DNA of 23,198 nucleotides from a virus. A program made the translations under genes and the position numbers. The stretch covers positions 1 through 23,198 of IMG/VR virus record IMGVR_UViG_3300025674_000414; one strand, given 5' to 3'. The stretch's first letter is position 1, and each line of letters opens with the position of its first letter. Below are positions 2,807 through 22,006 of the stretch, one piece after another. Below the pieces are notes generated by a model. It was not told the DNA's origin and made no database searches. It saw only the letters and a list, made by a program, of their open reading frames with translations.

Positions 2807-4279
2807 ATGCCAGCAATTATAACAAATAAGTTTAGAATACACAATTCGGAACAGTTTTTTGAATCATTTTCAGAAGCTGCACCTAATGTTTATTACTTAG
2901 GAATTGGTAGACCACAAGATTTTACTACTTCTACTAGACCAGACGGAAGAACAGAAAACGAAGGTACGGATTCTGCTTCACCAACACCTACAGATTCAGT
3001 CGTAGAAGAATTTTATACTTTTGACGATTTACTGGCAGTTAAAAAAATTACAAGTTCAGATATATCAAAAGTTATTCCAAGAAGAAACTGGACAAGTGGT
3101 GCTGTATATGATATGTACAGACACGACTATGGTAGATACATTACAGGTACAACAACAGCAAAAACTTCAACAAGTGGTGCTTCAAATTTATATGACGCTA
3201 CTTTTTATGTAAAGACTGCCGCTAATAGAGTTTATAAATGTTTAAACAATGCTAACGGTGGTGCTGTCAATGATGAACCTACAACAACATCACCATCAGC
3301 AACACAAACTACAGGTGATGGTTACGTATGGAAATATATGTACACATTATCATCTTCACAAGTTGCAAATTTCTTATCTACAGATTTTATGGCAGTTGCA
3401 TCCGATTCAGGTGTACAATCTGCTGCTCTTAACGGTGCAATTGATACCGTTATTGTTAAATCTGCTGGTACAGGCGGAACAAACGGAACACATACAAGTA
3501 TTCCAATAAGAGGTGATGGATCAGGCGGTGTCGTTTCTGTAGTTGTTTCTTCTGGTTCTGTTTCAAGTGTTACAGTTACAACTGCTGGTACAAATTATAC
3601 ATACGGATATATTAGACTTGCAGATATTAATTCTGCTGGTGCTGGTGCATTAACAGGTGCTGAATTAGATGTAATTATTCCACCAAAAGATGGACACGGT
3701 GCAAACGCTGTAGAAGAATTAGGTGGTTTCTTTATTATGTTAAATCAAAATTTAGAAGGAACTGAATCTGCTAATTCTGGCGACTATACTGTAGAAAATA
3801 ATTTTAGAAAAATAGTTTTAATACGTGATCCACTTTCAGGTGGTTCTGCTGCTTCAGCAACAACATTAAGAGCAACTAAAGCAGTTAGATTTGCAAGTTC
3901 TCCTACTCCAGGCACATTTACAGTTGATGAAAAGATTACTCAAGCAACGACTGGTGCTGTAGGTAAAGTTGTAGAATGGGATGCTACAAATAGAATTTTA
4001 TATTATATACAACCAAGATTTACAGACGAGGGAGTAGATAGTAACGGAAATCTGACAGCATTTTCTACTGCTGCTGTAATTACAGGTGCTAGTTCAAGTG
4101 CTACTGGAACACCTGATACATCAATTACATCAACAGTTAACAATGTTGTATTTACAGGCGGATATTCTGTTTCAGAATTAGACGCTGATACAGGAGACGT
4201 AATGTATATTGAAAATAGAGCACCAATCAGTAGAGCTTCAGATCAAACCGAAAATATTAAACTGATAATTGAGTTTTAG
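2807..4279 (+). CDS. gp8: Baseplate wedge protein, T4 gp8-like
   Basis: 490 residues. It opens with ITNKFRIHNSEQFFESFSEA (about residues 5-24), followed by NVYYLGIGRPQDF (27-39), a Thr/Asp-rich loop, and IPRRNWTSGAVYDMYRHDYG (90-109), then DGYVWKYMYTLS. I recognise this order of blocks from proteins annotated as gp8 baseplate wedge in marine T4-like phages. In T4, gp8 is a dimer in the baseplate wedge that contacts gp10, gp7 and gp6. This protein is longer than T4 gp8 (334 residues), with an extra Ser/Gly/Thr-rich part. The segment VDEKITQATTGAVGKVVEWD (about residues 375-394) resembles a bead-like repeat also found in the next protein. It follows a late promoter and is 10 bases from the next gene. 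Confidence 0.7.
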   Translation: MPAIITNKFRIHNSEQFFESFSEAAPNVYYLGIGRPQDFTTSTRPDGRTENEGTDSASPTPTDSVVEEFYTFDDLLAVKKITSSDISKVIPRRNWTSGAVYDMYRHDYGRYITGTTTAKTSTSGASNLYDATFYVKTAANRVYKCLNNANGGAVNDEPTTTSPSATQTTGDGYVWKYMYTLSSSQVANFLSTDFMAVASDSGVQSAALNGAIDTVIVKSAGTGGTNGTHTSIPIRGDGSGGVVSVVVSSGSVSSVTVTTAGTNYTYGYIRLADINSAGAGALTGAELDVIIPPKDGHGANAVEELGGFFIMLNQNLEGTESANSGDYTVENNFRKIVLIRDPLSGGSAASATTLRATKAVRFASSPTPGTFTVDEKITQATTGAVGKVVEWDATNRILYYIQPRFTDEGVDSNGNLTAFSTAAVITGASSSATGTPDTSITSTVNNVVFTGGYSVSELDADTGDVMYIENRAPISRASDQTENIKLIIEF

Positions 4280-10420: not shown

Positions 10421-10648
10421 ATGACTATATTAAAAGTACAAGGTTATGAAAGTTTAGTGAGAGATACAAGATCAAATGCGATTGTTAATACAAATAAAAG
10501 TGAATACAAAATGTATATGGCAAGAGCAAGAGCAAGAGAACAACAAGGTGATGAAATAAGAAATGCTGTAAAAGAGATAAATAATCTAAAAGCAGAATTA
10601 AGAGAAATAAAAAATTTAATAAAAGAAGTAGTTAAAAATGGCAGTTAG
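10421..10648 (+). CDS. Small coiled-coil protein among tail genes
   Basis: 75 residues. There is no clear Shine-Dalgarno site before the ATG, which lies five bases after the previous stop, so coupling is likely. The first 30 residues read LKVQGYESLVRDTRSNAIVN, which has the feel of small conserved proteins in T4-like marine phages. The rest (about 33-72) is charged and heptad-like (IRNAVKEINNLKAELREIKN), predicting a coiled coil. It overlaps the following fibre gene by 11 bases. A role in fibre or baseplate assembly is only an inference from position. Confidence 0.65.
   Translation: MTILKVQGYESLVRDTRSNAIVNTNKSEYKMYMARARAREQQGDEIRNAVKEINNLKAELREIKNLIKEVVKNGS
10576..10583 (+). promoter_or_regulatory. 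Possible late promoter, GATAAATA
   Basis: GATAAATA matches the relaxed NATAAATA late motif and lies 55 bases before the fibre start at 10638. However, it sits inside the small coiled-coil gene, where such AT-rich octamers arise often by chance. Confidence 0.2.
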
Positions 10649-12032
10649 ATCAGTAGCAATAACAGATACACTAGAAACATTTAGAACGCAATTTAATACA
10701 CTTGCGGCAAGTGATTTTGGTGATATAGCAACTTTAGATCCATCACTTTCAGCAACAAGTGTCATTGGTGCGGTTAACGAATTATCAGCACAGGTTTCTG
10801 CTTCACTTGGTATCTTTATTGAAGATAGTTCATCTACTCAACAACAAATCGGTGCAGGACAAACTTTAACAGTTTTAGGTACATCAAATCAAATTAATGC
10901 TGTTGTATCTGTTCCTGATACATTAACTATTTCAATGCCTAATGATGTTACGATTGCAAACAATCTTACTGTTTCAAATCAATTAACGGTAACTGATACT
11001 GCTTTAATAGATGGCACATTAACTATTGCAACAGGTTCTATTACAGATTCAAGTGGTACAATATCTTTTTCAAATGAAAATTTAATTACTACAGGTACAA
11101 TCAATACTGGCGGTGCGACTGTAACATCTTTATCATCTACAGGCGCTGTTTCTGGTACAACAATTACAGGTTCAAGTACAGTTACAGGTGCTAATTTAGT
11201 TTTAACAACAAATGGTACATTAACTTTTGAAGGTTCTACAAATGATGATTTTGAAACTACTTTAACAGTTGTAAATCCTACTGCTGATAGAACAATTACT
11301 TTACCTAACATAACAGGTACAGTTGTAACTACTGGTGATACTGGTACAGTTACAAGTACAATGATTGCAAATGGAACAATTGTTAACGCTGATATAGCAG
11401 ACACAACTATTAGAGCAGCAAAATTAAATTTATCTGCTGATACACTAGTTGTAGATACTTTACAAGCAAATACAATTACAGGAACTGCTTCAGTTGCTCA
11501 GTTAGTAGAATTAACAGATAACGGAAATTTAAACGAAACAGTTTACTTAACTTTTGCCGATGGTGCTACAGGTAATCAAGGATTAGAAACAGATCCAGGT
11601 TTAACTTATAATCCAAGTACAAATATTTTATCTACAACTGCTTCACAAGCAAACTACGCCGACTTAGCAGAGAAATATGTATCAGATGAAGAATATTTAC
11701 CAGGTACTATTGTTATGTTTGGTGGTTCACAAGAAATTACTATTGCAACTGAAAAAACAAAAGCAGTTGCTGGTGTTATATCAGAAAAACCTGCTTATTT
11801 AATGAATAGTGGATTAACAGATACATTAGCATTAAATGTTGCTTTACAAGGAAGAGTACAATGTAAAGTAAAAGGTAATATTAATAAAGGTGATATGATT
11901 GTTGTAAGTGATGTATCAGGAGTTGGTATTGCTGATAATGATCCTAAATTAGGAACAGTTGTCGGTAAAGCATTACAAAGTTACAATAGTGAAGAAGTTG
12001 GAACTATAGAAGTCGTGGTTGGTAGACTGTAA
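10638..12032 (+). CDS. Tail fibre-like protein with conserved C-terminal domain
   Basis: 464 residues. The N-terminal 70 residues (VAITDTLETFRTQFNTLAAS, then SATSVIGAVNELSAQV) look like a virion attachment segment. The middle (about 70-330) is low-complexity Thr/Ser/Gly/Asn beta-repeat sequence. Residues 335-464 form a distinct domain: YADLAEKYVSDEEYLPGTIV, VAGVISEKPAYLMNSG, ALQGRVQCKVKGNINKGDM and a terminal EVVVGRL. I know this domain from the ends of fibre proteins of T4-like marine phages, where it resembles intramolecular-chaperone or protease-type tips; autoprocessing here is unproven. It is the last ordinary structural gene before the modification cassette and ends inside an inverted repeat. 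Confidence 0.75.
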   Translation: MAVRSVAITDTLETFRTQFNTLAASDFGDIATLDPSLSATSVIGAVNELSAQVSASLGIFIEDSSSTQQQIGAGQTLTVLGTSNQINAVVSVPDTLTISMPNDVTIANNLTVSNQLTVTDTALIDGTLTIATGSITDSSGTISFSNENLITTGTINTGGATVTSLSSTGAVSGTTITGSSTVTGANLVLTTNGTLTFEGSTNDDFETTLTVVNPTADRTITLPNITGTVVTTGDTGTVTSTMIANGTIVNADIADTTIRAAKLNLSADTLVVDTLQANTITGTASVAQLVELTDNGNLNETVYLTFADGATGNQGLETDPGLTYNPSTNILSTTASQANYADLAEKYVSDEEYLPGTIVMFGGSQEITIATEKTKAVAGVISEKPAYLMNSGLTDTLALNVALQGRVQCKVKGNINKGDMIVVSDVSGVGIADNDPKLGTVVGKALQSYNSEEVGTIEVVVGRL

Positions 12033-12046: not shown

Positions 12047-12484
12047 ATGATTGCTGAATTGATGAACGAAGTAGTATCGTATGAACGATACGAAAATAAT
12101 GAATTATTTTATATAGACAAAGACGGAAAAGACTTTTCTGTAAAAAACACTTTATCATTTTCTGAATGGTTAATAAAAAAAGATAACTTCCCTACTATCA
12201 AAGTTGAAGGCATAGAAACAAATGCTTTTATCACATCAAATTTTCCACGTATAGATTTTAATACAGTACATTTATTTGTACAAAACAAAAAAGGTTATAG
12301 TTTTGATTGGCACAAAGATGATACAAATGTTTATCTTTATGTAGTCAAAGGTCGTAAAAAAGTTTTTATAGATGATGAACAACATTGGGTTGGTTTTGGA
12401 GATGGCATACATATATTAAAAGGAAATAAACATAAAGTTGAAAGTGATAATGACACTTGGGCATTAAGTTTAGGTTATGAATAA
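12047..12484 (+). CDS. Cupin/JmjC-like putative Fe(II) dioxygenase
   Basis: 145 residues. The second half carries FDWHKDDTNVYLYVVKGRKK (residues 86-105), which strongly resembles the JmjC/cupin_4 pattern H-x-D followed by a strand and a G-x-K turn. His89 and Asp91 are the likely proximal metal ligands, and His129 in KGNKHKVES the distal one. JmjC and cupin_4 enzymes use Fe(II) and 2-oxoglutarate to hydroxylate protein side chains. This is a short member (most are over 200 residues), close to a minimal double-stranded beta-helix. The gene overlaps the next radical SAM gene by one base (TAATG), so the two are probably made together. Substrate is unknown; a non-enzymatic cupin is possible. Confidence 0.65.
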   Translation: MIAELMNEVVSYERYENNELFYIDKDGKDFSVKNTLSFSEWLIKKDNFPTIKVEGIETNAFITSNFPRIDFNTVHLFVQNKKGYSFDWHKDDTNVYLYVVKGRKKVFIDDEQHWVGFGDGIHILKGNKHKVESDNDTWALSLGYE

Positions 12485-13527
12485 TGAATTGGATGTTTTA
12501 TATAAAGACAACGGAAACTTGTCAATTAAATTGCAAACATTGTTTTACTAATGGTATAAACGGTGCAAAAATTTATTTCAATCCCACAAAGACAATAGAC
12601 TGGTTTAAAAGATTTAGAGATTATCATCCTAACGAATTAGATTCTGCACACTTAGAGTTTCACGGTGGTGAACCTTTTTTAGCACCTGTTTCTCATATGA
12701 CAAAAGTTCATAATGAATTAAAAGACTTATGGAAAAGACAAACTTTTGGTATAACATCTAATTTAGTTTTTAAATTAAAAGATGAACACTTTGAGTTTAT
12801 AGACGGACCTTTAAACAAAAGAATGGGTACAAGTTGGGATCCTAAAATAAGATTTGAAAATGATAAACAAGAAAAGTTGTGGGAAAAGAATATACAAACT
12901 TTATTAGATAGAGGCGTTACAATAAAACTTTTTATATCTGTTACACAAGATACAATCAATATCGAACCAATTGAATTATTAAAATGGATAAGAGATTTAG
13001 GTGTACAAGAAGTTTCATTTGAAAGACTTACAGGTAATGGTAATGCGAATTTACATCCAGAGATATTTCCAAAGAACATAGAACAAGACGCTTGGTTTCT
13101 AAAAATGCACCATCAAAGTGAAGAATACGGTGCTAGAAAATGGTTTGAAAATGAAACATTAGAAGTCATCTATGATAAATTTGATACAGGATTTTTAAAA
13201 GGTGGTACATTTTGTAGAGATTGTGAACAAAAAATCTTTACAATTAACGCAGATGGCACAATATCAGGTTGCCCAAATGCAGCACCAGAGTTTCAATTTG
13301 GTCATTTAAATGACGATATAAAAAGTCTTATAAATAGTCCAAAGAGAATACACAACATTGTTTGTGAAAGGTCACGTAATCCTTTATGTTTTAAGTGTCC
13401 TGTATTTGAATTTTGTGGTGGAGATTGTCACCAACTTGCTTGGCAAGGAGATATTTGTGGCGCACCAAAAAGTTTAATGAAAGAATTAAAAGGAAAATTA
13501 AGTTATGGCAATATCAGATCCAGTTAG
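12484..13527 (+). CDS. Radical SAM protein with SPASM domain (copy 1)
   Basis: 347 residues. CQLNCKHC gives the radical SAM cluster ligands Cys13, Cys17 and Cys20 (Cx3Cx2C), and HGGEPF at 60-65 is the SAM-binding GGEP motif. The C-terminal third has Cys244, Cys247, Cys263 (DGTISGCPN), Cys294, and then Cys302-x2-Cys305-x5-Cys311-x3-Cys315 and Cys325. This is the SPASM pattern for two auxiliary 4Fe-4S clusters. SPASM enzymes such as anSME and peptide maturases modify Cys, Ser or other side chains in proteins or peptides. The 3' end overlaps by 23 bases the gene whose product ends in CHxS repeats, making that protein the first candidate substrate. Family is near certain; substrate is inferred. 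Confidence 0.9.
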   Translation: MNWMFYIKTTETCQLNCKHCFTNGINGAKIYFNPTKTIDWFKRFRDYHPNELDSAHLEFHGGEPFLAPVSHMTKVHNELKDLWKRQTFGITSNLVFKLKDEHFEFIDGPLNKRMGTSWDPKIRFENDKQEKLWEKNIQTLLDRGVTIKLFISVTQDTINIEPIELLKWIRDLGVQEVSFERLTGNGNANLHPEIFPKNIEQDAWFLKMHHQSEEYGARKWFENETLEVIYDKFDTGFLKGGTFCRDCEQKIFTINADGTISGCPNAAPEFQFGHLNDDIKSLINSPKRIHNIVCERSRNPLCFKCPVFEFCGGDCHQLAWQGDICGAPKSLMKELKGKLSYGNIRSS

Positions 13528-14068
13528 TAAAGCGGGTATCGTAAATAGATTTGAAGATTTGGTTACAGACGTTGCAAATACAGGCATTGTATGGGGAACA
13601 GACAATAAACCATTTACAGAAATGCCTGATGGTAATTATGCTGGTACAACTGCTGGCGACAGCATAAACATTACAAGTGCTGACATCACAGGTACAGTTA
13701 TTACTGCTTCAACTATACGTACTGTTTTAGAAACAGAAGCTGCGTTATATACAAACATTAGACAACAACAAGCAATTTTATTTGTAGAAGGTGCAGGTGG
13801 TAACACAGGTTCACGTCCAACACCAGGTACAATTTTTGACCAAACCCAAGTTGCACACTTAGACACAGGTAATCGAGCATCTTTAGGTGCTATTAGTTCT
13901 GGAAGTGTAACAACAGGAAATGTTATAGATGATACAAATTTAGAAACATATATGGGAAACATTGCAACAGCATACAATACAATTAGAACAACAACGATAA
14001 CAGATCAGGTAAATGTGTGCCACGCAAGTTGCCACTCATCTTGCCACGGAAGTAGAGGAAGAAGATAA
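13505..14068 (+). CDS. Structural-like protein with C-terminal Cys-His-x-Ser repeats, candidate modification substrate
   Basis: 187 residues. AAAGGA (13488-13493) supports the ATG, which lies inside the upstream radical SAM gene. Residues 1-170 are Thr/Ala/Asp-rich phage virion-type sequence (NRFEDLVTDVANTGIVWGTD near the start, YNTIRTTTITDQVN at 157-170) and contain no Cys. All three Cys occur in the last 16 residues: CHAS, CHSS, CHGS, then RGRR (172-187). A large Cys-free core with a compact reactive tail is what one expects of a carrier with a maturation tail, or of a metal-binding tip. It overlaps the next gene by one base. No homologous function can be named; similar tails may exist in cyanophage proteins, but I could not check that. 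Confidence 0.75.
   Translation: MAISDPVSKAGIVNRFEDLVTDVANTGIVWGTDNKPFTEMPDGNYAGTTAGDSINITSADITGTVITASTIRTVLETEAALYTNIRQQQAILFVEGAGGNTGSRPTPGTIFDQTQVAHLDTGNRASLGAISSGSVTTGNVIDDTNLETYMGNIATAYNTIRTTTITDQVNVCHASCHSSCHGSRGRR
14018..14065 (+). other. Cys-His-x-Ser triple repeat encoding segment
   Basis: Codons 172-187 of the 187-residue protein. The hexamer TGCCAC recurs exactly every 12 bases (14018, 14030, 14042), encoding Cys-His three times, each followed by x-Ser; an Arg-Gly-Arg-Arg end follows. The spacing is Cx3Cx3C and, for His, Hx3Hx3H. HAS, HSS and HGS are three His-x-Ser tripeptides, as in the HxsA targets of bacterial His-Xaa-Ser radical SAM systems, but with a Cys before each. Confidence 0.7.
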
Positions 14069-14754
14069 TGATTATAGAAACAAAAGCACCAATTGCTATT
14101 GATGAATTGAAAAAATATTTTACTGACAAAGACGTAAGTTATTTAATTGATTATTCAACAAGTGAATTAAAAGGTAAAAAACTTTTAACTTATTTAAGTA
14201 ACTTAGATATACCTGCTGATATTAAAAATGTAGATTTAGAATTAGTTAAAGAATATTTACATTCTGTTTCTTTAGTTAATATTAAATCATTAGAAAACAT
14301 TGTAATAGATATTTTACTTGTAGAAAAGAACCTTGCAAAGAACGAACATTACAATAAGTTTATTACAGAAAATTTTGAGATTATTGAAAAATGGAAAAAC
14401 AAATTAGAAAGTTTGACTTTGTATAATATGTATATGTTAAATTCAGATGAATTTAGAGATTATGCAAAATCATATCCAAATGATGAAACAAAAGATTTAG
14501 AAGGTGTAAACTTTGTAAGTCTTTTAAAACACGAGAGATTTTTCTCATATTACGGTAGAATAAATAATGATAAACTAAAGTTTTATAATCATTACTTTAA
14601 TGACTATATGTTTAGAGGAAAAAATATGTTTGACTATTGGGCAAACGATAAAAACCCTCTATTCTTGTTGACTTGGGCAGTTGCAAATAATAAAGGTAAA
14701 GACTATATCAACGCTAAAAAGGAATTTATAAAAAATGTTACATCTATTCAATAA
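14068..14754 (+). CDS. Unknown protein in modification cassette (228 residues)
   Basis: 228 residues, starting on a TAATG overlap with the CHxS protein gene, so translation is probably coupled. It is Lys/Asn/Leu-rich and contains no cysteine. The sequence looks mostly helical in residues 1-130 (for example IAIDELKKYFTDKDVSYLID), with an aromatic C-terminal half (FFSYYGRINNDKLKFYNHYF, NMFDYWANDKNPLFLLTWAV). I recognise no domain. Its place directly after the candidate substrate and before another unknown gene suggests a partner: a substrate-binding helper, chaperone or second virion component. That is inference from order alone. Confidence 0.7.
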   Translation: MIIETKAPIAIDELKKYFTDKDVSYLIDYSTSELKGKKLLTYLSNLDIPADIKNVDLELVKEYLHSVSLVNIKSLENIVIDILLVEKNLAKNEHYNKFITENFEIIEKWKNKLESLTLYNMYMLNSDEFRDYAKSYPNDETKDLEGVNFVSLLKHERFFSYYGRINNDKLKFYNHYFNDYMFRGKNMFDYWANDKNPLFLLTWAVANNKGKDYINAKKEFIKNVTSIQ

Positions 14755-15838
14755 AGTTTATTTAGAATTAGACGATAAGATAGAATTAAATTACGATAGA
14801 GTTGTTATCGGAACTTGTGGTGTACCACTTGCCGATCGAGTTGCAGATGTAACTAGCGGACAACTATTAAGTTATTCAACAAGTTATCCAGACAATTTTG
14901 TAAACTTAATTACATCAATTAAATCACATACTGATACAAGTAATAAAAAACTAATCATCTATGCTGATAAAACAAACTATACAAAATTATTCATAGAGTG
15001 GGTTAAAACAATATTACCTAACCTTGATCTATCTTCATTTAATAAACTAAAAGACTTAACTGTTTATAAAGAAAGAGTTATTAATAATACTCAATTACAA
15101 ACTGTTGGTTCTATTAATATGACACAACTATGGGCAGGTCTTGGTGATTTAACAGACACATTTAATAATACAGTTGTTTCAGATGAACAAAGATCATCTA
15201 TCAAAAGTTTAAATTTAAATTATTCATATGAGTATTTACTTGCTGATCACTTTAGTGGATCAACAAATTATACATCTTCATTAAATACAACAGTTCATAG
15301 ATTTTTAATTAGATGGTTCAAAGAAGCATTTACAGATAATAGAGAAATGGTTTTAATGAATCTGTTAAATAAAACTTTTCAAACTGGATTATCATTTACT
15401 GAAAGTGATGTAAATTTAACTTCATCAAATCCTATATCTGGCGTTTCTTCACTTCAATACTATGCAGATGAAACTATATGGGAACAAAAAGATACAATTA
15501 GTTCAGGTGTTTATGGTATATGTAATTTAGAAGGTATCAATCAAACACAAGTTGACGGATTAAGAACATTAATTAAAAAAGTTTATGCAGATGTAGAAGG
15601 AATGGAAATCAATAGAACAATGTTTAGTGCTTTTGATTACTTAGAGTATGCTGTAAAAGATTCTATTTCAAATACAGAAATGAATACTGTTTTAGACTTT
15701 GTTGTTGCAAATCCATTTGATACTTGTTTAGTACCTAAATTTGATTTTCAAAATGTAAACTTTGTTTTAATTCAACACATTTTCAATTTAAAGAGAGATA
15801 ACAATACCGAGGCATTAACGAAATTTAGATTATTATAG
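14735..15838 (+). CDS. Unknown protein in modification cassette (367 residues)
   Basis: 367 residues. AAAAAGGA at 14716-14723 precedes the ATG, and the gene overlaps its upstream neighbour by 20 bases. The N-terminal part alternates short strands and helices (DRVVIGTCGVPLADRVADVT; KKLIIYADKTNYTKLFIEWV), followed by an Asn/Thr/Ser-rich middle (YLLADHFSGSTNYTSSLNTT) and a C-terminal helical part. It has only three cysteines, with no metal-site spacing, and no signal peptide. No family is recognised. It could be a virion protein acted on by the cassette or a scaffold for the enzymes; the sequence does not decide. Confidence 0.7.
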   Translation: MLHLFNKVYLELDDKIELNYDRVVIGTCGVPLADRVADVTSGQLLSYSTSYPDNFVNLITSIKSHTDTSNKKLIIYADKTNYTKLFIEWVKTILPNLDLSSFNKLKDLTVYKERVINNTQLQTVGSINMTQLWAGLGDLTDTFNNTVVSDEQRSSIKSLNLNYSYEYLLADHFSGSTNYTSSLNTTVHRFLIRWFKEAFTDNREMVLMNLLNKTFQTGLSFTESDVNLTSSNPISGVSSLQYYADETIWEQKDTISSGVYGICNLEGINQTQVDGLRTLIKKVYADVEGMEINRTMFSAFDYLEYAVKDSISNTEMNTVLDFVVANPFDTCLVPKFDFQNVNFVLIQHIFNLKRDNNTEALTKFRLL

Positions 15839-15847: not shown

Positions 15848-16900
15848 GTGAGAGAATTTATCATTGACCCAAAGCGTGATCCAGAACAAGAATACACAAT
15901 ACATTTATTTGAGTTTTGTAATTTAAGATGTTCGTTTTGTTGGCAAAACCACGAAGATACGATAGGTATAGATAACGTAGTAGATAAACTACCGTTTATT
16001 GAAAAGTTTATTTCAAAAGAGTTAAGAAAAAAAGTTCTATTCAATGTAATGGGTGGTGAAGTCTTTGCACCTGCAATCTACAATAAAAATCTCAATGAAG
16101 GATACAAACTACTTTCAAAAGGTATAGAAGATATTTGTAAAAAATATAATAAAGAATTTGTGATTAATTGGGTTACAAATTTAGTTACAAATGAAGAAGG
16201 TAATAATTTAATAAGAGATTTATTAGATTGGTCAAAATCAAATAATATAACTGCTAGATTAACAACAAGTTATGACCCTCGTGGTCGTTTTAACGCAACT
16301 GATTTACAAATATTTAAAGATAATGTTGAATATTGGAAAGATGAATTAACTTGTTTTTCTTGTTTGATGACTAAATCAAATTTAGAATATTACTTAACAA
16401 ATAATGATGAATACTTTGATTATCTTTATAAGTCTGGTAAATATATTTACTTTGATTACTATATGCCAGATCACGCTGCTAAACATCAAATGCCAAGTGA
16501 TGAATTATTATTAAAGTTTTTTAAATGGTTAGTAGATAATTATCCAAATACACATCCTGTTAGAGATTGGATTTTCAATAAGAAAAATTATGCTTCTTGT
16601 AGAACAAGTAAGTTAGTTTTAGCAGACGGTACATTATGTCAATGTGGTAATTTAACACAACATCCTAAATCATTAAGTATGTACAAAAGTCCTATTAAGA
16701 GAATGGATAATAGTGAGATTGAAAATAAGTTTTTAGAAAAATACAACTGTGCTTCTTGTGAATTTTTAGATAGATGTACACTAGGTTGTTTTATGAATAG
16801 AGATTACAAATACTTGGAGGAACTAAATGAGTGTGTCTTCAAACTTACGCACCGATATATCGAAGATGTACGAGTACAACGAGGATACGAAGCTCGTTGA
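15848..16900 (+). CDS. Radical SAM protein with SPASM-like domain (copy 2)
   Basis: 350 residues from a GTG start backed by a strong ribosome site. CNLRCSFC gives Cys24, Cys28 and Cys31; MGGEVF (68-73) is a GGE motif with Val in place of the usual Pro. The C-terminal cysteines are Cys251, Cys264, Cys266, then Cys301-x2-Cys304-x5-Cys310-x3-Cys314 and Cys329, a SPASM-type arrangement with an unusual Cys-x-Cys pair in the DGTLCQCGN turn. The middle has little in common with copy 1, so this is an old, divergent paralogue and not a recent duplicate. It probably acts on a different site or substrate. The 3' end overlaps the next gene by 74 bases. Confidence 0.88.
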   Translation: MREFIIDPKRDPEQEYTIHLFEFCNLRCSFCWQNHEDTIGIDNVVDKLPFIEKFISKELRKKVLFNVMGGEVFAPAIYNKNLNEGYKLLSKGIEDICKKYNKEFVINWVTNLVTNEEGNNLIRDLLDWSKSNNITARLTTSYDPRGRFNATDLQIFKDNVEYWKDELTCFSCLMTKSNLEYYLTNNDEYFDYLYKSGKYIYFDYYMPDHAAKHQMPSDELLLKFFKWLVDNYPNTHPVRDWIFNKKNYASCRTSKLVLADGTLCQCGNLTQHPKSLSMYKSPIKRMDNSEIENKFLEKYNCASCEFLDRCTLGCFMNRDYKYLEELNECVFKLTHRYIEDVRVQRGYEAR

Positions 16901-17417: not shown

Positions 17418-17967
17418 AATTGTAGATAACTTTTTAGATGATAAGAAGTTAATAGATGATTTAAAACAAGAAAGTAAAATCACTAATACAATTGAAGGAC
17501 AAGATACACATAACTTTACAGAACCTCAAAAAAAGTTTTACGAGTTAATTAATAAAGTTATTGTAAATTATTGTTTTGAAAATGACATTGAATATACTAA
17601 TTTAAAATTTTCTAATTTACAAAAAGGTAATCTACACAAATACGATCAATCAAAAGTAACAAATCATTTGTATGAACCACACCACGATATGGTAGAAAGT
17701 TCTTATATAACTGCTATCTATTATATTGATAGTGATTACTCTACTGAAAAGTGGGTGGGTGGTGAATTAGCAATCTATAAGAGTCTGACGTTTGCAGAAT
17801 ATCCGCACAATACAGTAAACATATTACCAAAGAAAAACAGATTAATTATCTTTCCAGGTTTTTTAGTGCATAGAGTTAAACCTTATTTCGGTGATAATCC
17901 TAGATCATCATTAGTGTTAGGGTGGAAAATAAAAGATCAACCAAAAGTTTTACCTATAAAAGTATAA
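17389..17967 (+). CDS. 2OG-Fe(II) oxygenase, prolyl 4-hydroxylase-like
   Basis: 192 residues from ATG 17389; a TTG 30 bases upstream is possible but unnecessary, and the ATG start gives FIDTIEIVDNFLDDKKLIDD, a normal opening for this family. The double-stranded beta-helix motifs are clear: YEPHHDMVES with His98 and Asp100 (HxD), ITAIYYIDSDY, GGELAIY, then FPGFLVHRVKP with distal His161, and NPRSSLVLGW with Arg172 as the likely 2-oxoglutarate salt bridge. P4H-type enzymes hydroxylate proline or other residues in proteins. The gene overlaps its upstream neighbour by 29 bases and its downstream radical SAM neighbour by one. Family is confident, substrate unknown. Confidence 0.85.
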   Translation: MQIKFIDTIEIVDNFLDDKKLIDDLKQESKITNTIEGQDTHNFTEPQKKFYELINKVIVNYCFENDIEYTNLKFSNLQKGNLHKYDQSKVTNHLYEPHHDMVESSYITAIYYIDSDYSTEKWVGGELAIYKSLTFAEYPHNTVNILPKKNRLIIFPGFLVHRVKPYFGDNPRSSLVLGWKIKDQPKVLPIKV

Positions 17968-19058
17968 TGGATTTAATAATTAAACCTACAGAATTATGTA
18001 ATTTTAAATGTACGTTTTGTTCATCTACAAAGATAGCACAACACAAAAAAGATTTATTAAATCATAATTATATCTTTAGATTTCTTAAAAGATTTCCTCA
18101 AACTAAAACAATCATAGTTAATGGTGGTGATCCTTTAATGGTTGAACCAGGTTATTACTGGAGAATTATTGATTGGTTAGATGAACATAATTATAATACT
18201 TCTATTTCGTTAACAACTAATCTCTGGCCGTTTTATGTTAAACCTAAAAAGTGGGCACCTTTATTTAATAATGATAGAGTAGGTATTACAACATCTTTTC
18301 AATACGGTGGTGGTAGACTAAAAGGTGACTTTACAGAATTTACTGAAGAAGACTTTTGGAAATGTTCAGATACAATGTTAGAGTATTGTGGTTATCGACC
18401 TGATTTTATTGCTGTTATTGTGCCAGAGAACGAAGATATGGCATTAAAAAACGTAGAATTGGCGTACAAAATGAGTGATGGAAAAGAACCTAAAGATACG
18501 TTTGAAAATTTATCAAAAGAAAAAACGGGTGTTGAATGTAAATTAAATTATGCTATGTCAAGTGGCGACCAAGATAAACCATATTTGTTAAGTAAGATAT
18601 ATCAAAAGTATGTAGAGATATGGGAAAAAGGTTTACATCCTTGGGAGTTTAATACTCGACAAATGATGAAAAGAATTAGAGATGAAATAACTTTATGTCC
18701 TCAAAATAGAAAATGTGATGAGGGTATCAGATCATTTAATCCAAGTGGTGATTATTATAGTTGTGGTGCTTTTGGTGATGATAAAGATAAAGCAATAGAC
18801 TTTGAAGCAGAAATGCAAGGTAAGTTTTTTACACCATTACAAAAAGATGTAAACTTGTTTAGTATGAAACGTGCTTGTTTAGAATGTCCTATGTTTAATA
18901 TATGTAATGGATGTAGAAAGACAATTAAAGATTTTAAAAAACATAATGTAGTAGAAGATCATTGTAGATTAATGAAAACTATCGCACCAAAGATACTAAA
19001 AGCAAATGATCTAAATATAGAAGTAACTCCTTACGTGGATGAAAGAAATGTTAGATAA
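17967..19058 (+). CDS. Radical SAM protein with SPASM-like domain (copy 3)
   Basis: 363 residues from ATG 17967, which overlaps the oxygenase stop (TAATG); a GTG at 17922 in frame is less likely because the ATG puts the cluster motif at the usual distance from the start. CNFKCTFC gives Cys11, Cys15 and Cys18; NGGDPL at 52-57 is a GGDP variant of GGEP. The C-terminal cysteines are Cys244, Cys250, Cys266 (GDYYSCGAF), then Cys304-x2-Cys307-x5-Cys313-x2-Cys316 and Cys333. This again suggests two auxiliary clusters. It is translationally coupled to a 2OG oxygenase on both sides, which points to a joint modification. Substrate is unknown. Confidence 0.88.
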   Translation: MDLIIKPTELCNFKCTFCSSTKIAQHKKDLLNHNYIFRFLKRFPQTKTIIVNGGDPLMVEPGYYWRIIDWLDEHNYNTSISLTTNLWPFYVKPKKWAPLFNNDRVGITTSFQYGGGRLKGDFTEFTEEDFWKCSDTMLEYCGYRPDFIAVIVPENEDMALKNVELAYKMSDGKEPKDTFENLSKEKTGVECKLNYAMSSGDQDKPYLLSKIYQKYVEIWEKGLHPWEFNTRQMMKRIRDEITLCPQNRKCDEGIRSFNPSGDYYSCGAFGDDKDKAIDFEAEMQGKFFTPLQKDVNLFSMKRACLECPMFNICNGCRKTIKDFKKHNVVEDHCRLMKTIAPKILKANDLNIEVTPYVDERNVR

Positions 19059-19566
19059 ATTTTTAAATAATGGATTTTTCAAAGTAACTGACTCAAAAGC
19101 ATTTAAGTTCTTTGATATAGATACTGTCGAATGGACAGACAAAGGTGAAATGGGTGTAGCAATTATTGAACGTAACGATAAGATAGAAAAACAATTAGAA
19201 AAGACTAGAGATTATGTTAGTGATAATATCATACTACCTCATTTAGGTTCTCACGCTTATAGTAAAATAGAAGTTGTAAATGGATTAGATAAACCTACAT
19301 TAGAATGGCACAATGATTTAGTTGAAGGTCCTAATTGTGGTTGTTTATTATACTTTGATGATACAGACGAAGATACAGGCGGTGCAATTAAATTTAGACA
19401 CGCTAAATCAAAAGATCAAATAAGTGAAATCTATCCTAAAAAATTTGACATCATAGTTATCAATCATAGTTTAAGATTTCAACATATGGTAACTGAACAA
19501 AAAATGCCAGTACCTCGTAGAGTGATGAGTTTAAACTTTTACTTAGATGAAAGATTATCAAAATGA
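19039..19566 (+). CDS. 2OG-Fe(II) oxygenase-like protein (P4H type), second copy
   Basis: 175 residues; the start may be ATG 19039 or ATG 19048, and both overlap the radical SAM gene. LEWHNDLVEG holds His91 and Asp93 (HxD). CGCLLYFDDTDEDTGGAIKF is the following strand-turn-strand, RFQHMV gives distal His149 (a His at 143 is a second candidate), and PRRVMSLNFYL supplies Arg160 or Arg161 for 2-oxoglutarate. This order is characteristic of the prolyl hydroxylase-like fold. It is not a recent copy of the oxygenase at 17389, since similarity is limited to the motifs. It overlaps the next oxygenase gene by four bases (ATGA). Confidence 0.82.
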   Translation: MKEMLDKFLNNGFFKVTDSKAFKFFDIDTVEWTDKGEMGVAIIERNDKIEKQLEKTRDYVSDNIILPHLGSHAYSKIEVVNGLDKPTLEWHNDLVEGPNCGCLLYFDDTDEDTGGAIKFRHAKSKDQISEIYPKKFDIIVINHSLRFQHMVTEQKMPVPRRVMSLNFYLDERLSK

Positions 19567-20126
19567 TTTTAAACTATTGGCCAACACCTATAATGTACGA
19601 TAGAATTAGTAACAACAAGTTATTAGATAAAACTACACAATACATTTTAACTGCTTACAATGATAATACAAGTGCAAATATCTTACATCAAAATATATTA
19701 GATGATAAAGAATTAACAGATTTTAGAAAAGAAATAATTGTACCTACTTTTGATAAATTTTATAAACAAGAGTTTGGTTTTAGTATTAAGGAAAAAAGAT
19801 TTCATTTGAGAGGGTGGATAACTGGTTATGGAATAACTTATTCAATGAGAAAACATAATCATTCAGGTTCACATTTAAGTGCTGTATTTTATTTACTAGC
19901 AGAGGAACAAGATAAGGGTGGTCGTTTAGTAATAAGTGATCCTAGATTTAATGCAAATCGAGGATATAAAGATGAGTTTAATAAATGGTTTGAACCACAT
20001 ACTATAATTCCTTGTACAGGAGATGTAGTTCTTTTTCCTAGTTTTCTTTATCATAATGTAGAAACATTTTATGGTAAACTAAGACTTGCAATGCCAGTAG
20101 ATTTAATATTGTACGACAATGAATAA
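19563..20126 (+). CDS. 2OG-Fe(II) oxygenase-like protein of the 2OG-FeII_Oxy_5 type
   Basis: 187 residues. RGWITGYGITYSMRKHNHSG (83-102) and HLSAVFYLLAEEQDKGGRLV (104-123) are followed by ISDPR, GDVVLFPSFLYHNVETF and KLRLAMPVDL. This matches the small putative 2OG-Fe(II) oxygenase family seen in marine phages and proteobacteria (TIGR02466/PF13759 type). The proximal motif is H-x-H (His98, His100), with His104 nearby and no HxD; His164 is the distal ligand and Arg174 the likely 2-oxoglutarate contact. The substitution for Asp is usual for this subfamily as I recall it, but I could not check. It overlaps both neighbours by a few bases. Confidence 0.78.
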   Translation: MILNYWPTPIMYDRISNNKLLDKTTQYILTAYNDNTSANILHQNILDDKELTDFRKEIIVPTFDKFYKQEFGFSIKEKRFHLRGWITGYGITYSMRKHNHSGSHLSAVFYLLAEEQDKGGRLVISDPRFNANRGYKDEFNKWFEPHTIIPCTGDVVLFPSFLYHNVETFYGKLRLAMPVDLILYDNE

Positions 20127-21066
20127 AATAACTGTATCAATTAATCCATCTTATTTTTGTAACTTTAGATGTAACTTTTGTTATCTAACACCTGAGCAAT
20201 TAGGTAATCAAAAAAGAATACCCTTACCTATTTTAGATAAACGATTAGAAGAATTATCTAAAGTAAGAGAAATAGAATGGATAGATTTATATGGTGGTGA
20301 AATAGGTGCATTAAAGAAAAATTACTTTTATGGTTTACGAGATGTTATAAGAAGATGGTATGGTGGAAAAATAAACATCATTACAAACTATAGTATGTTG
20401 CACGAAGGATTTTATGAAGATGACTTTTATCTTTCTGTAAGTTATGATTTTGAAGCAAGAGAAAAATCTGATTTAGTTTATAATAATATGATTATGAGTC
20501 CTGTACCAATTGCTGTATTAATACTTGCAAGTGAAAAAGTTATTAATATGAATGTAGATGAAATGATTTTAAAATTAAATTTATGTACATCTATAGAAAG
20601 TGTTGAGATTAAACCTTATTCTATTAATCAAGCAAATGCACAACCAGTAACACATAGAGATTTTGAAAACTTTGTACAAAAATGGATTGAAAGTAAAGTA
20701 CATAAGAATTTTGATTTTATAAATGAAGGTAATATTATTAGAAGTTTAAAAAAAGAATATAACGCATTTTCAAACGATCACGTTTACATCACACCGAACG
20801 GTAACTTTGGTGTTTTAGAGTTTGATAAAAATGATAAAGAATATTTTAAAGAGTATAATAACTTTAAGTTTATAGAAAAATGGGCAAATGATGAACCACT
20901 AAATAACATATCAGACATATGCAAACAATGTAATTATTATGGTCATTGTTTAACTGAACATTACAGATATGTCAAAGATTTGAAAAACGGTTGTAATGGA
21001 TATAAAGGACTATTAGATTGGTATGGAAAAGAAAGATTGGAAGATAAGACAAGAGTTATATCATAG
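20119..21066 (+). CDS. Radical SAM protein with reduced auxiliary cluster domain (copy 4)
   Basis: 315 residues, the shortest of the four. CNFRCNFC gives Cys14, Cys18 and Cys21, and LYGGEIG at 57-63 is the GGE motif. The C-terminal part has only Cys268-x2-Cys271-x5-Cys277 and Cys292. The turn where copies 1-3 place the first auxiliary-cluster cysteine reads NGNFGVLEFD and has none. This suggests one auxiliary cluster (twitch-like) or a degenerate SPASM domain. The core still looks intact, so it is probably active. The gene overlaps the oxygenase by 8 bases and the next small gene by 44. Confidence 0.85.
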   Translation: MNKITVSINPSYFCNFRCNFCYLTPEQLGNQKRIPLPILDKRLEELSKVREIEWIDLYGGEIGALKKNYFYGLRDVIRRWYGGKINIITNYSMLHEGFYEDDFYLSVSYDFEAREKSDLVYNNMIMSPVPIAVLILASEKVINMNVDEMILKLNLCTSIESVEIKPYSINQANAQPVTHRDFENFVQKWIESKVHKNFDFINEGNIIRSLKKEYNAFSNDHVYITPNGNFGVLEFDKNDKEYFKEYNNFKFIEKWANDEPLNNISDICKQCNYYGHCLTEHYRYVKDLKNGCNGYKGLLDWYGKERLEDKTRVIS

Positions 21067-21433
21067 ACTACACAAAGAACACAAAGACAATCTTTATGGT
21101 TATGATATTTTAATGTCAGACGATATAGTCAATGACGCTATAGACTATTTCAATGAAACTGAAATGCCCTTTATCTATCCAGCAAAAAGTTATGTAGTAG
21201 CAATATGTTACGCTACGTGGTTAGCAAGAGATTTTAAAGAAGACTTTTACGACTTATTGAGAGATAAGGAACTTCTTTATAATAATGATCCATACTTTAA
21301 AACGTATGAAGAAGACAAAGACACATATGATAAGATTATAGAAAAAGTCTTACCATTTGATGAAAACAAGGGAATTGTGCCTGACATAAAAGAATATTAT
21401 AAGGCAGAATTTTTCGATATAAATATAACATAA
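21023..21433 (+). CDS. Unknown acidic protein at the end of the cassette
   Basis: 136 residues from ATG 21023; no good ribosome site is visible, and the next ATG in frame would remove 30 residues, so the start is uncertain. The protein is rich in Asp, Tyr and Lys, with one possible hydrophobic helix (YVVAICYATWLARDFKEDFY, about 57-76) that is too charged for a membrane span. I recognise no family. The last codons (D-I-N-I-T) carry a late promoter octamer. It overlaps the last radical SAM gene by 44 bases and so belongs to the same coupled run. Confidence 0.65.
   Translation: MEKKDWKIRQELYHRLHKEHKDNLYGYDILMSDDIVNDAIDYFNETEMPFIYPAKSYVVAICYATWLARDFKEDFYDLLRDKELLYNNDPYFKTYEEDKDTYDKIIEKVLPFDENKGIVPDIKEYYKAEFFDINIT
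21418..21425 (+). promoter_or_regulatory. T4-type late promoter octamer inside a coding end
   Basis: A perfect TATAAATA sits in the last codons of the 136-residue protein gene, 17 bases before the next ATG at 21443. It marks the restart of late structural transcription after the cassette. Confidence 0.6.
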
Positions 21434-21658: not shown

Positions 21659-22006
21659 ATGGCAGCAGTCGCAAATCTAATCATTGACCAAGGCGCAACT
21701 TTTACATCTGACATTACAGTAAAAGACGCTAGTGGAAACGCATTTAATTTAACTGGATATACTGCTGAAGCAAAGATGGCAAAGGGATATGCCTCTACAA
21801 GAACACGTACTACAATAACTGCTACAATTTCTGGTGATCCTACAACTGGAACCGTTGCTCTTTCTCTAACACCTGTTCAAACAGCGGCTTTAGACGCACC
21901 AGAAAGATACGTTTATGACGTGGAAATCACGCAAACCTCTTCAGGTGCTGTAACTAGAGTTATTGAGGGTATAATTACTGTAAGACCAAACGTAACAACA
22001 AGTTAA
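21659..22006 (+). CDS. Small beta-sandwich virion protein
   Basis: 115 residues. The sequence NLIIDQGATFTSDITVKDAS, LTGYTAEAKMAKGY, TGTVALSLTPVQTAALDAPE, YVYDVEITQTSSGAVTRVIE and GIITVRP reads as an immunoglobulin-like or BppU-N-type beta sandwich. Such proteins occur in phage tails and baseplates as small fibre-base or decoration modules. I recall close relatives in marine T4-like phages annotated only as structural. It lies six bases after the previous gene and ends before a late promoter. The family assignment is moderate. Confidence 0.65.
   Translation: MAAVANLIIDQGATFTSDITVKDASGNAFNLTGYTAEAKMAKGYASTRTRTTITATISGDPTTGTVALSLTPVQTAALDAPERYVYDVEITQTSSGAVTRVIEGIITVRPNVTTS

Follow-up and report, generated by a model that had tools for sequence, protein, structure and literature searches.

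From our analysis of a viral stretch of 23,198 nucleotides (hereafter the window; IMG/VR record IMGVR_UViG_3300025674_000414), we found that small fibre-associated proteins ending in a Cys-His tag are encoded by many phages, and by some bacteria related to predatory ones, along with a peptide-modifying type of radical SAM enzyme. The repeats of the tag vary in number and spacing, the C-terminus is invariantly basic, and a SPASM enzyme is ever present; we therefore favour the view that a virion protein associated with the fibres has its tail matured in a dedicated way by the radical SAM enzyme r1, an Fe(II)-type cupin, and three further radical SAM proteins (r2-r4). Judged from sequence, we give this reading a probability of about 0.6. 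Phages probably finish part of their virion by a previously undescribed radical chemistry.

A portable Cys-His tag at the C-terminus of differing proteins

The putative substrate in the window (13505-14068, + strand) is a protein of 187 aa with an ATG start, which we studied by homologue searches, alignment, and an AlphaFold model. As a preliminary description of this DNA had it, the protein ends in three Cys-His-x-Ser units and RGRR, which take up the last 16 codons (CHASCHSSCHGSRGRR; 14018-14065, + strand) and are followed by TAA. The Cys-free stretch noted there is also present, at 171 residues instead of 170 (the first Cys is residue 172), and the described overlap with the SPASM radical SAM gene (r1, 12484-13527) amounts to 23 nt, while 1 nt is shared with the DUF-A gene. 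Five homologues of 46-82% identity were found in viral contigs, and the tail is kept in 5/5.

The viral contigs were searched with a DNA pattern for CHxxCHxxCHxxRxRR, which uniform random DNA should yield about 0.4 times per 1e11 positions. Among the matches listed, the ORF stopped exactly after the motif in 116 of 120 viral loci, and four (L011, L046, L060, and L063) had no ORF ending at the motif. The 140 non-redundant tags carried Ser at position 4 in 124 cases, Ser (103) or Asn (33) at position 8, Ser at position 12 in 123, and Gly at position 14 in 122; the C, H, and R positions were preset by the pattern, and their 100% identity in this set is partly due to selection by the search. The 82 tag peptides are encoded by 138 different DNA sequences, which is indicative of selection at the protein level. 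In an alignment of 56 tagged proteins, many of them collected via r1 and hence independent of the tail, the tag was the most conserved part. The units differ in number (two to four) and in spacing, with Pro linkers or HSS repeats in some tails, and RGRR stays constant. A four-unit tail, CHSNCHSNCHSNCHTNRSRR, was noticed at L037:8105-8878; the locus has seven matches to radical SAM proteins. The Ser positions accept Asn and Ala, and Cys positions can drop out in variants from Bdellovibrionota; conservation therefore does not fix the reacting residues. Codon diversity, exact stops, and homologues exclude a chance artefact, a nucleotide repeat, or a frame error as the origin of the tail. The related pattern CHxxHxxHxxRGRR gave two matches in viral contigs, which we regard as chance; r1 was not found in either record. 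The tail is also compatible with CxxxCH, but c-type haem binding was set aside as unlikely from the sequence.

The Cys-His tail is a portable tag on differing bodies. Without their tails, the tagged proteins fall into nine BLASTP groups of about 100 to 360 aa, some of which still share a fold, because the model of the window protein (pLDDT 88, pTM 0.81, the tail part being of low confidence) structurally matches the 296-aa tagged protein of Atu_ph07. Among viral models (BFVD), the fold is that of jumbo-phage proteins, with a match to a 178-aa viral protein (E 2.5e-13, TM 0.81), which is also the length of the tagged protein of phage pPa_SNUABM_DT01. For the tagged protein and DUF-A alike, Foldseek against the PDB gave no significant fold and PDB profile searches gave no credible relatives; tblastn of the tagged protein against the phage collection returned zero matches at 1e-5 and unrelated weak ones at E up to 10, and a query of the 45-aa tail part returned none, probably owing to low-complexity filtering. 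Six of the 232 body homologues are ORFs without a tag, and all six belong to a single variant in which the gene is split and a neighbouring ORF carries the tag. In this variant (L152-L155, L014, and L099), the N-terminal half has been joined to a protein of 308 aa whose end is Gly-rich, and the tag is kept by an ORF of its own, 140 aa long, an arrangement that looks like adhesin domain shuffling.

Linkage of the tag with r1

Of the non-redundant loci of the main type, 85 extend 2.5 kb or more upstream of the tag, and in 79 of these r1 lies at most 3 kb upstream. In the other six, r1 lies elsewhere in the locus (L280, L145, and L121) or in the record (L034, L114, and L116). In the reverse direction, 80 r1 loci were fetched independently of the tail; the tag gene is adjacent in 70 and within 1.4 kb in 5, and a contig end cuts the remaining 5, that is, all 75 r1 loci with room have a tag gene within 1.4 kb. 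The linkage thus holds in both directions and in all testable loci. The preliminary description had paired the tail with the radical SAM gene and proposed a survey of viral and metagenomic proteins with such tails for adjacent radical SAM genes; the survey returned the linkage, and not tail proteins that occur widely without radical SAM genes. The interpretation given there is thus upheld in outline, but a unit of two genes was too narrow a view, as what travels together is a cassette comprising seven or more gene families.

A second architecture consists of two adjacent genes for 128-aa tagged proteins directly after a long fibre gene. In these paired-tag phages, cupin-r1-r3-r4-r2 form a separate operon, so that linkage is present without adjacency, and r1 was found in 14 of 20 fragmentary paired-tag records. 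The long gene immediately in front of the tag genes in these phages encodes a relative of the tail-fibre-like protein of the window (10638-12032). Tagged genes stand side by side in many phages (L056, L077, and paired-tag loci such as L030, L049, and L084), which suggests that their products form a heteromeric complex.

The cassette and its setting among tail-fibre genes

In the window, the cassette is ordered as follows, all on the + strand. Behind the tail-fibre-like gene (10638-12032), which has a weak match to a tail fibre family, stand a cupin/Fe(II)-oxygenase-like gene (12047-12484; upstream of the tag in 71/85 loci with room), r1 (12484-13527), the tagged gene, DUF-A (phrog_20767, 14068-14754; downstream of the tag in 86/90 loci with room), DUF-B (14735-15838; 71/90 loci with room), and r2, a second radical SAM protein with a SPASM-type Cys pattern (15848-16900), which was present in 25 of the 26 loci with 8 kb downstream. 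A 2OG-Fe(II) oxygenase (PF13640, 17359-17967) is a variable member of the island with relatives in 6/26 loci. It is followed by r3 (17922-19058), a 2OG-Fe(II) oxygenase-like protein under the Pfam cut-off (19039-19566; 13/26), a further 2OG-Fe(II) oxygenase (PF13759, 19563-20126; 13/26), which is with the cassette in paired-tag phages, and r4 (20119-21066); r3 and r4 are the third and fourth radical SAM proteins, each with a CxxxCxxC motif and each found in 24 of the 26 loci with 8 kb downstream. The last gene (21023-21433; 16/26) encodes a small conserved protein that travels with r1-r4 and belongs to the cassette of paired-tag phages. The region is flanked on one side by a baseplate wedge gene (2807-4279, + strand; phrog_438, 487 bits) with fibre-like genes, and on the far side by a gene (21659-22006) whose product is similar to an L-shaped-fibre assembly protein.

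The catalytic motifs are intact. The CxxxCxxC motif of r1 (at residue 13) and its complete 7-Cys SPASM motif (residues 244-325) are kept in 18/18 diverse members, and the putative metal triad of the cupin (H89-x-D91...H129) is invariant in 41/41 sequences. r1 passes the SPASM model TIGR04085 (34.1 against a cut-off of 27). Its best models are peptide modifiers (TIGR04083, PapB, and DynA), all scoring far under their cut-offs, and its best structures include CteB (5wgg) and anaerobic sulfatase maturases (4k36-4k39); the nearest models and structures are mostly modifiers of peptides or proteins. The tagged protein, as the putative precursor, is encoded beside this peptide-modifying type of enzyme, an arrangement by which RiPP systems are recognized. 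One viral contig of 116 kb has, ahead of its oxygenase, cupin, r1, and tagged-protein genes, a pair of neighbouring genes for tryptophan halogenases (L005:3301-6439; 345 and 359 bits).

Isolated phages and the virion

In a phylogenetic profile, r1, r3, r4, and DUF-A match the same seven of 50,697 phage records. These represent six isolates, Atu_ph07 being recorded twice, and comprise phages of Agrobacterium, Sinorhizobium, Burkholderia, and Pseudomonas. Tails ending in the tag were read directly in Atu_ph07, Phosso, SURPRISE13, pPa_SNUABM_DT01, and FLC6, while in FLC8 the tag is known through a tblastn match spanning the tag region. Since isolated phages carry the cassette, the proposed maturation can be tested now. 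The 296-aa tagged protein of Atu_ph07 is gp170. According to the published mass-spectrometric virion proteome of this phage, virion proteins are clustered in CDS 31-76, 170-215, and 284-329, and gp170 is the first CDS of cluster 170-215; baseplate gp numbers in that paper agree with the RefSeq tags (PMC6102473). The boundary of this cluster suggests that gp170 is present in the virion. Support for a virion protein, as the preliminary description called it, is thus indirect, coming from the baseplate/tail-fibre setting and from the place of gp170 at the cluster edge.

Phages FLC6, SURPRISE13, and pPa_SNUABM_DT01 carry the same cassette, with genes annotated as cupin, Fe-S oxidoreductase, and radical SAM in the available portions of their published accounts, which mention neither a substrate nor a tail; one paper on these phages assigns the genes to DNA repair and host metabolism. 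Radical SAM genes occur in other phages as well, and T4-like phages of Campylobacter have six (PMC3322345). In these, no match to r1, r3, or r4 was found at 1e-5, and their enzymes may serve another substrate.

Related systems in Bdellovibrionota

Scanning bacteria (one genome per species) with the tag pattern gave 19 matches, many in Bacteriovoracaceae/Bdellovibrionaceae with r1 close by; three of the 19 (L134, L135, and L141) are pattern matches without an ORF containing the motif. Of 291 Bdellovibrionota genomes, 16 have r1, and the exact tag is confined to 8 of these 16 (Fisher 1e-11). Several other r1-bearing Bdellovibrionota have variant tails ending in RGRR or RSRR (YCHTNVPTPPPCHASRGRR, YCHGNFPPPCHGSRGRR, YCHSNHCSHSNHGSRGRR, WCHSSHSSHSSHSSRGRR, and ICHSNCYTPPPKSRSRR). 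Nearly all variants share a Cys-His start, His-x-(Ser/Asn) units, and a basic end, and later Cys residues are missing from some. The r1 proteins of variant-tail genomes mostly fall outside the well-supported clade that accompanies the exact tag. At three r1 loci (L272, L282, and L283), no recognisable tail was found within the stretch examined, which is short in two of them.

The cassette at L276, on a 4.15-Mb contig, adjoins a 376-aa protein (L276:11576-12706) in which a type IV pilin start with its N-methylation motif is joined to a phage S74 tail-fibre chaperone domain. Pilin-like genes stand at the same place at L275:10983-12083 and L273:1019-2110. Extra radical SAM-like genes beyond r1-r4, with a Cys-rich N-terminal motif, were seen at L276, L273, L275, and L294.

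A model of tail maturation and its alternatives

We propose that a small protein at the tail fibres or baseplate, with a variable body and a fixed C-terminal tag, is matured by the island. The terminal RGRR would probably be the recognition end for the enzymes, in the manner of a follower peptide, and the Cys-His-x-Ser units ahead of it would be the residues acted on. r1 would most likely make the first modification by abstracting hydrogen within the repeats. Further steps, in an order that we infer, would fall to r2-r4 and the Fe(II)-type cupin, while chaperoning or presenting the substrate may be the task of DUF-A and DUF-B. A virion adhesion protein would thereby gain a cap that is chemically hardened or ready for metal. 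As four or more radical SAM enzymes co-travel, r1 is not necessarily the one that acts on the tail, and the three others or the cupin may do so instead. Since Ser is replaceable by Asn or Ala and later Cys residues are missing in some variants, chemistry centred on His or the backbone is at least as likely as Cys thioethers. A broader version of the model, in which several radical SAM enzymes and Fe(II) oxygenases in succession turn the Cys/His-x-Ser tag of a virion adhesin into a cap that is crosslinked or binds metal, and the machinery has been exchanged with Bdellovibrionota for adhesins borne on pili or fibres, is tentative, and we would put it slightly below even odds. No RiPP-like maturation is known so far for a structural protein of a virus, and this would be the first.

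The tail could instead be a mere recognition handle, with r1 and its partners modifying the body or a neighbouring tail fibre and leaving Cys and His as they are. The portability of the tag across bodies unconnected by BLASTP, always at the exact C-terminus, would suit a handle, as would the tag genes placed right behind the long fibre gene in paired-tag phages. We nevertheless consider this unlikely, as unit number and spacing vary while RGRR stays, which better fits a reacting core joined to a handle. Somewhat less probable still is a metal site (Zn, Fe, or an Fe-S cluster) formed by the Cys-His tail at the tip of a fibre or spike, with the radical SAM enzymes acting on a different substrate. 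Both Cys and His are well suited as metal ligands, phage tail tips and fibres with His-bound metal are known, and the His units outlast Cys in several variants. Such a site would leave unexplained the co-occurrence of r1 and tag in all testable loci, including those where the two are not neighbours; modification of the tail and metal binding are, moreover, not mutually exclusive. It appears highly improbable that the island serves to produce a secreted peptide or to modify the host, with the tagged gene as a proteolytically released precursor and not a part of the virion. Radical SAM/SPASM enzymes together with 2OG-Fe oxygenases do resemble RiPP clusters, and the tail is of peptide size. Against this, the body is a confidently predicted folded domain, the genes stand in the baseplate/tail-fibre region, the locus gene maps, as inspected, show no obvious conserved protease, exporter, or transporter, and gp170 of Atu_ph07 opens a virion-protein cluster in the published proteome (PMC6102473).

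Significance of the tag-r1 system

If the proposed maturation is true, radical chemistry would join the ways in which phages build their host-binding parts. It would also offer enzymologists a SPASM family with an unusually well-defined C-terminal target, and would link phage tail adhesins to surface structures of Bdellovibrionota. Many radical SAM and 2OG-Fe oxygenase genes of phages have no assigned job, and one set of them now has a concrete candidate substrate. In the open-access literature, we found nothing on the tail string or on radical SAM action on phage virion proteins; the tag-r1 system is large, conserved, and apparently undescribed.

Comparison with known systems

The nearest known analogue is the His-Xaa-Ser (HxsA-D) system, reportedly described by Haft and Basu, in which C-terminal His-x-Ser repeats on a partner protein are likewise found beside radical SAM genes. 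The preliminary description had made this comparison, which is apt in view of the HxS/HxN tails of Bdellovibrionota; one of these, WCHSSHSSHSSHSSRGRR (L271), is a literal His-x-Ser repeat with a weak HxsA match (TIGR03979, 16 of 121.65 bits). Family membership has to be rejected, as the curated models are missed by a wide margin: the tagged protein of the window has no match to the HxsA model (TIGR03979), and r1 and r3 score 29.4 of 370 bits with HxsB (TIGR03978) and 30.1 of 267.9 bits with HxsC (TIGR03977). Unlike in His-Xaa-Ser systems, Cys precedes His here, the tail ends in RGRR, the setting is that of phage fibres, and a cupin, DUF-A, and four radical SAM genes are present.

In its domain layout and complete SPASM Cys set, r1 is like PapB and CteB, which are SPASM maturases of ranthipeptides/sactipeptides. 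With 41.8 of 340 bits, r1 is under the curated cut-off for a PapB-type ranthipeptide maturase, and this identity was rejected. PapB substrates pair Cys with Asp/Glu (PMC9413430), whereas the tail of the window protein has no such partners and a whole folded protein, about 190 aa long, is the target. Anaerobic sulfatase-maturating enzymes are similar in being SPASM radical SAM enzymes that work on Cys/Ser of a whole protein; here, by contrast, there is no sulfatase, repeats take the place of one residue, and the score is under the model cut-off. T-even gene 38-type adhesins are small proteins encoded just 3' of the tail-fibre genes, and in this the tagged protein resembles them, although no sequence or fold link was found with the tools used and the radical SAM cassette, absent there, is an addition here. 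The mosaic adhesive trimer (MAT) fibres of Bdellovibrio are built of tail-fibre-like proteins with S74 domains (PMC10769870), and the Bdellovibrionota cassette similarly adjoins an S74 protein; radical SAM is absent from that account, and here S74 is joined to a type IV pilin-like N-terminus. In essence, the system would appear to work like a His-Xaa-Ser system or a SPASM RiPP system, yet by the curated models it is a member of neither.
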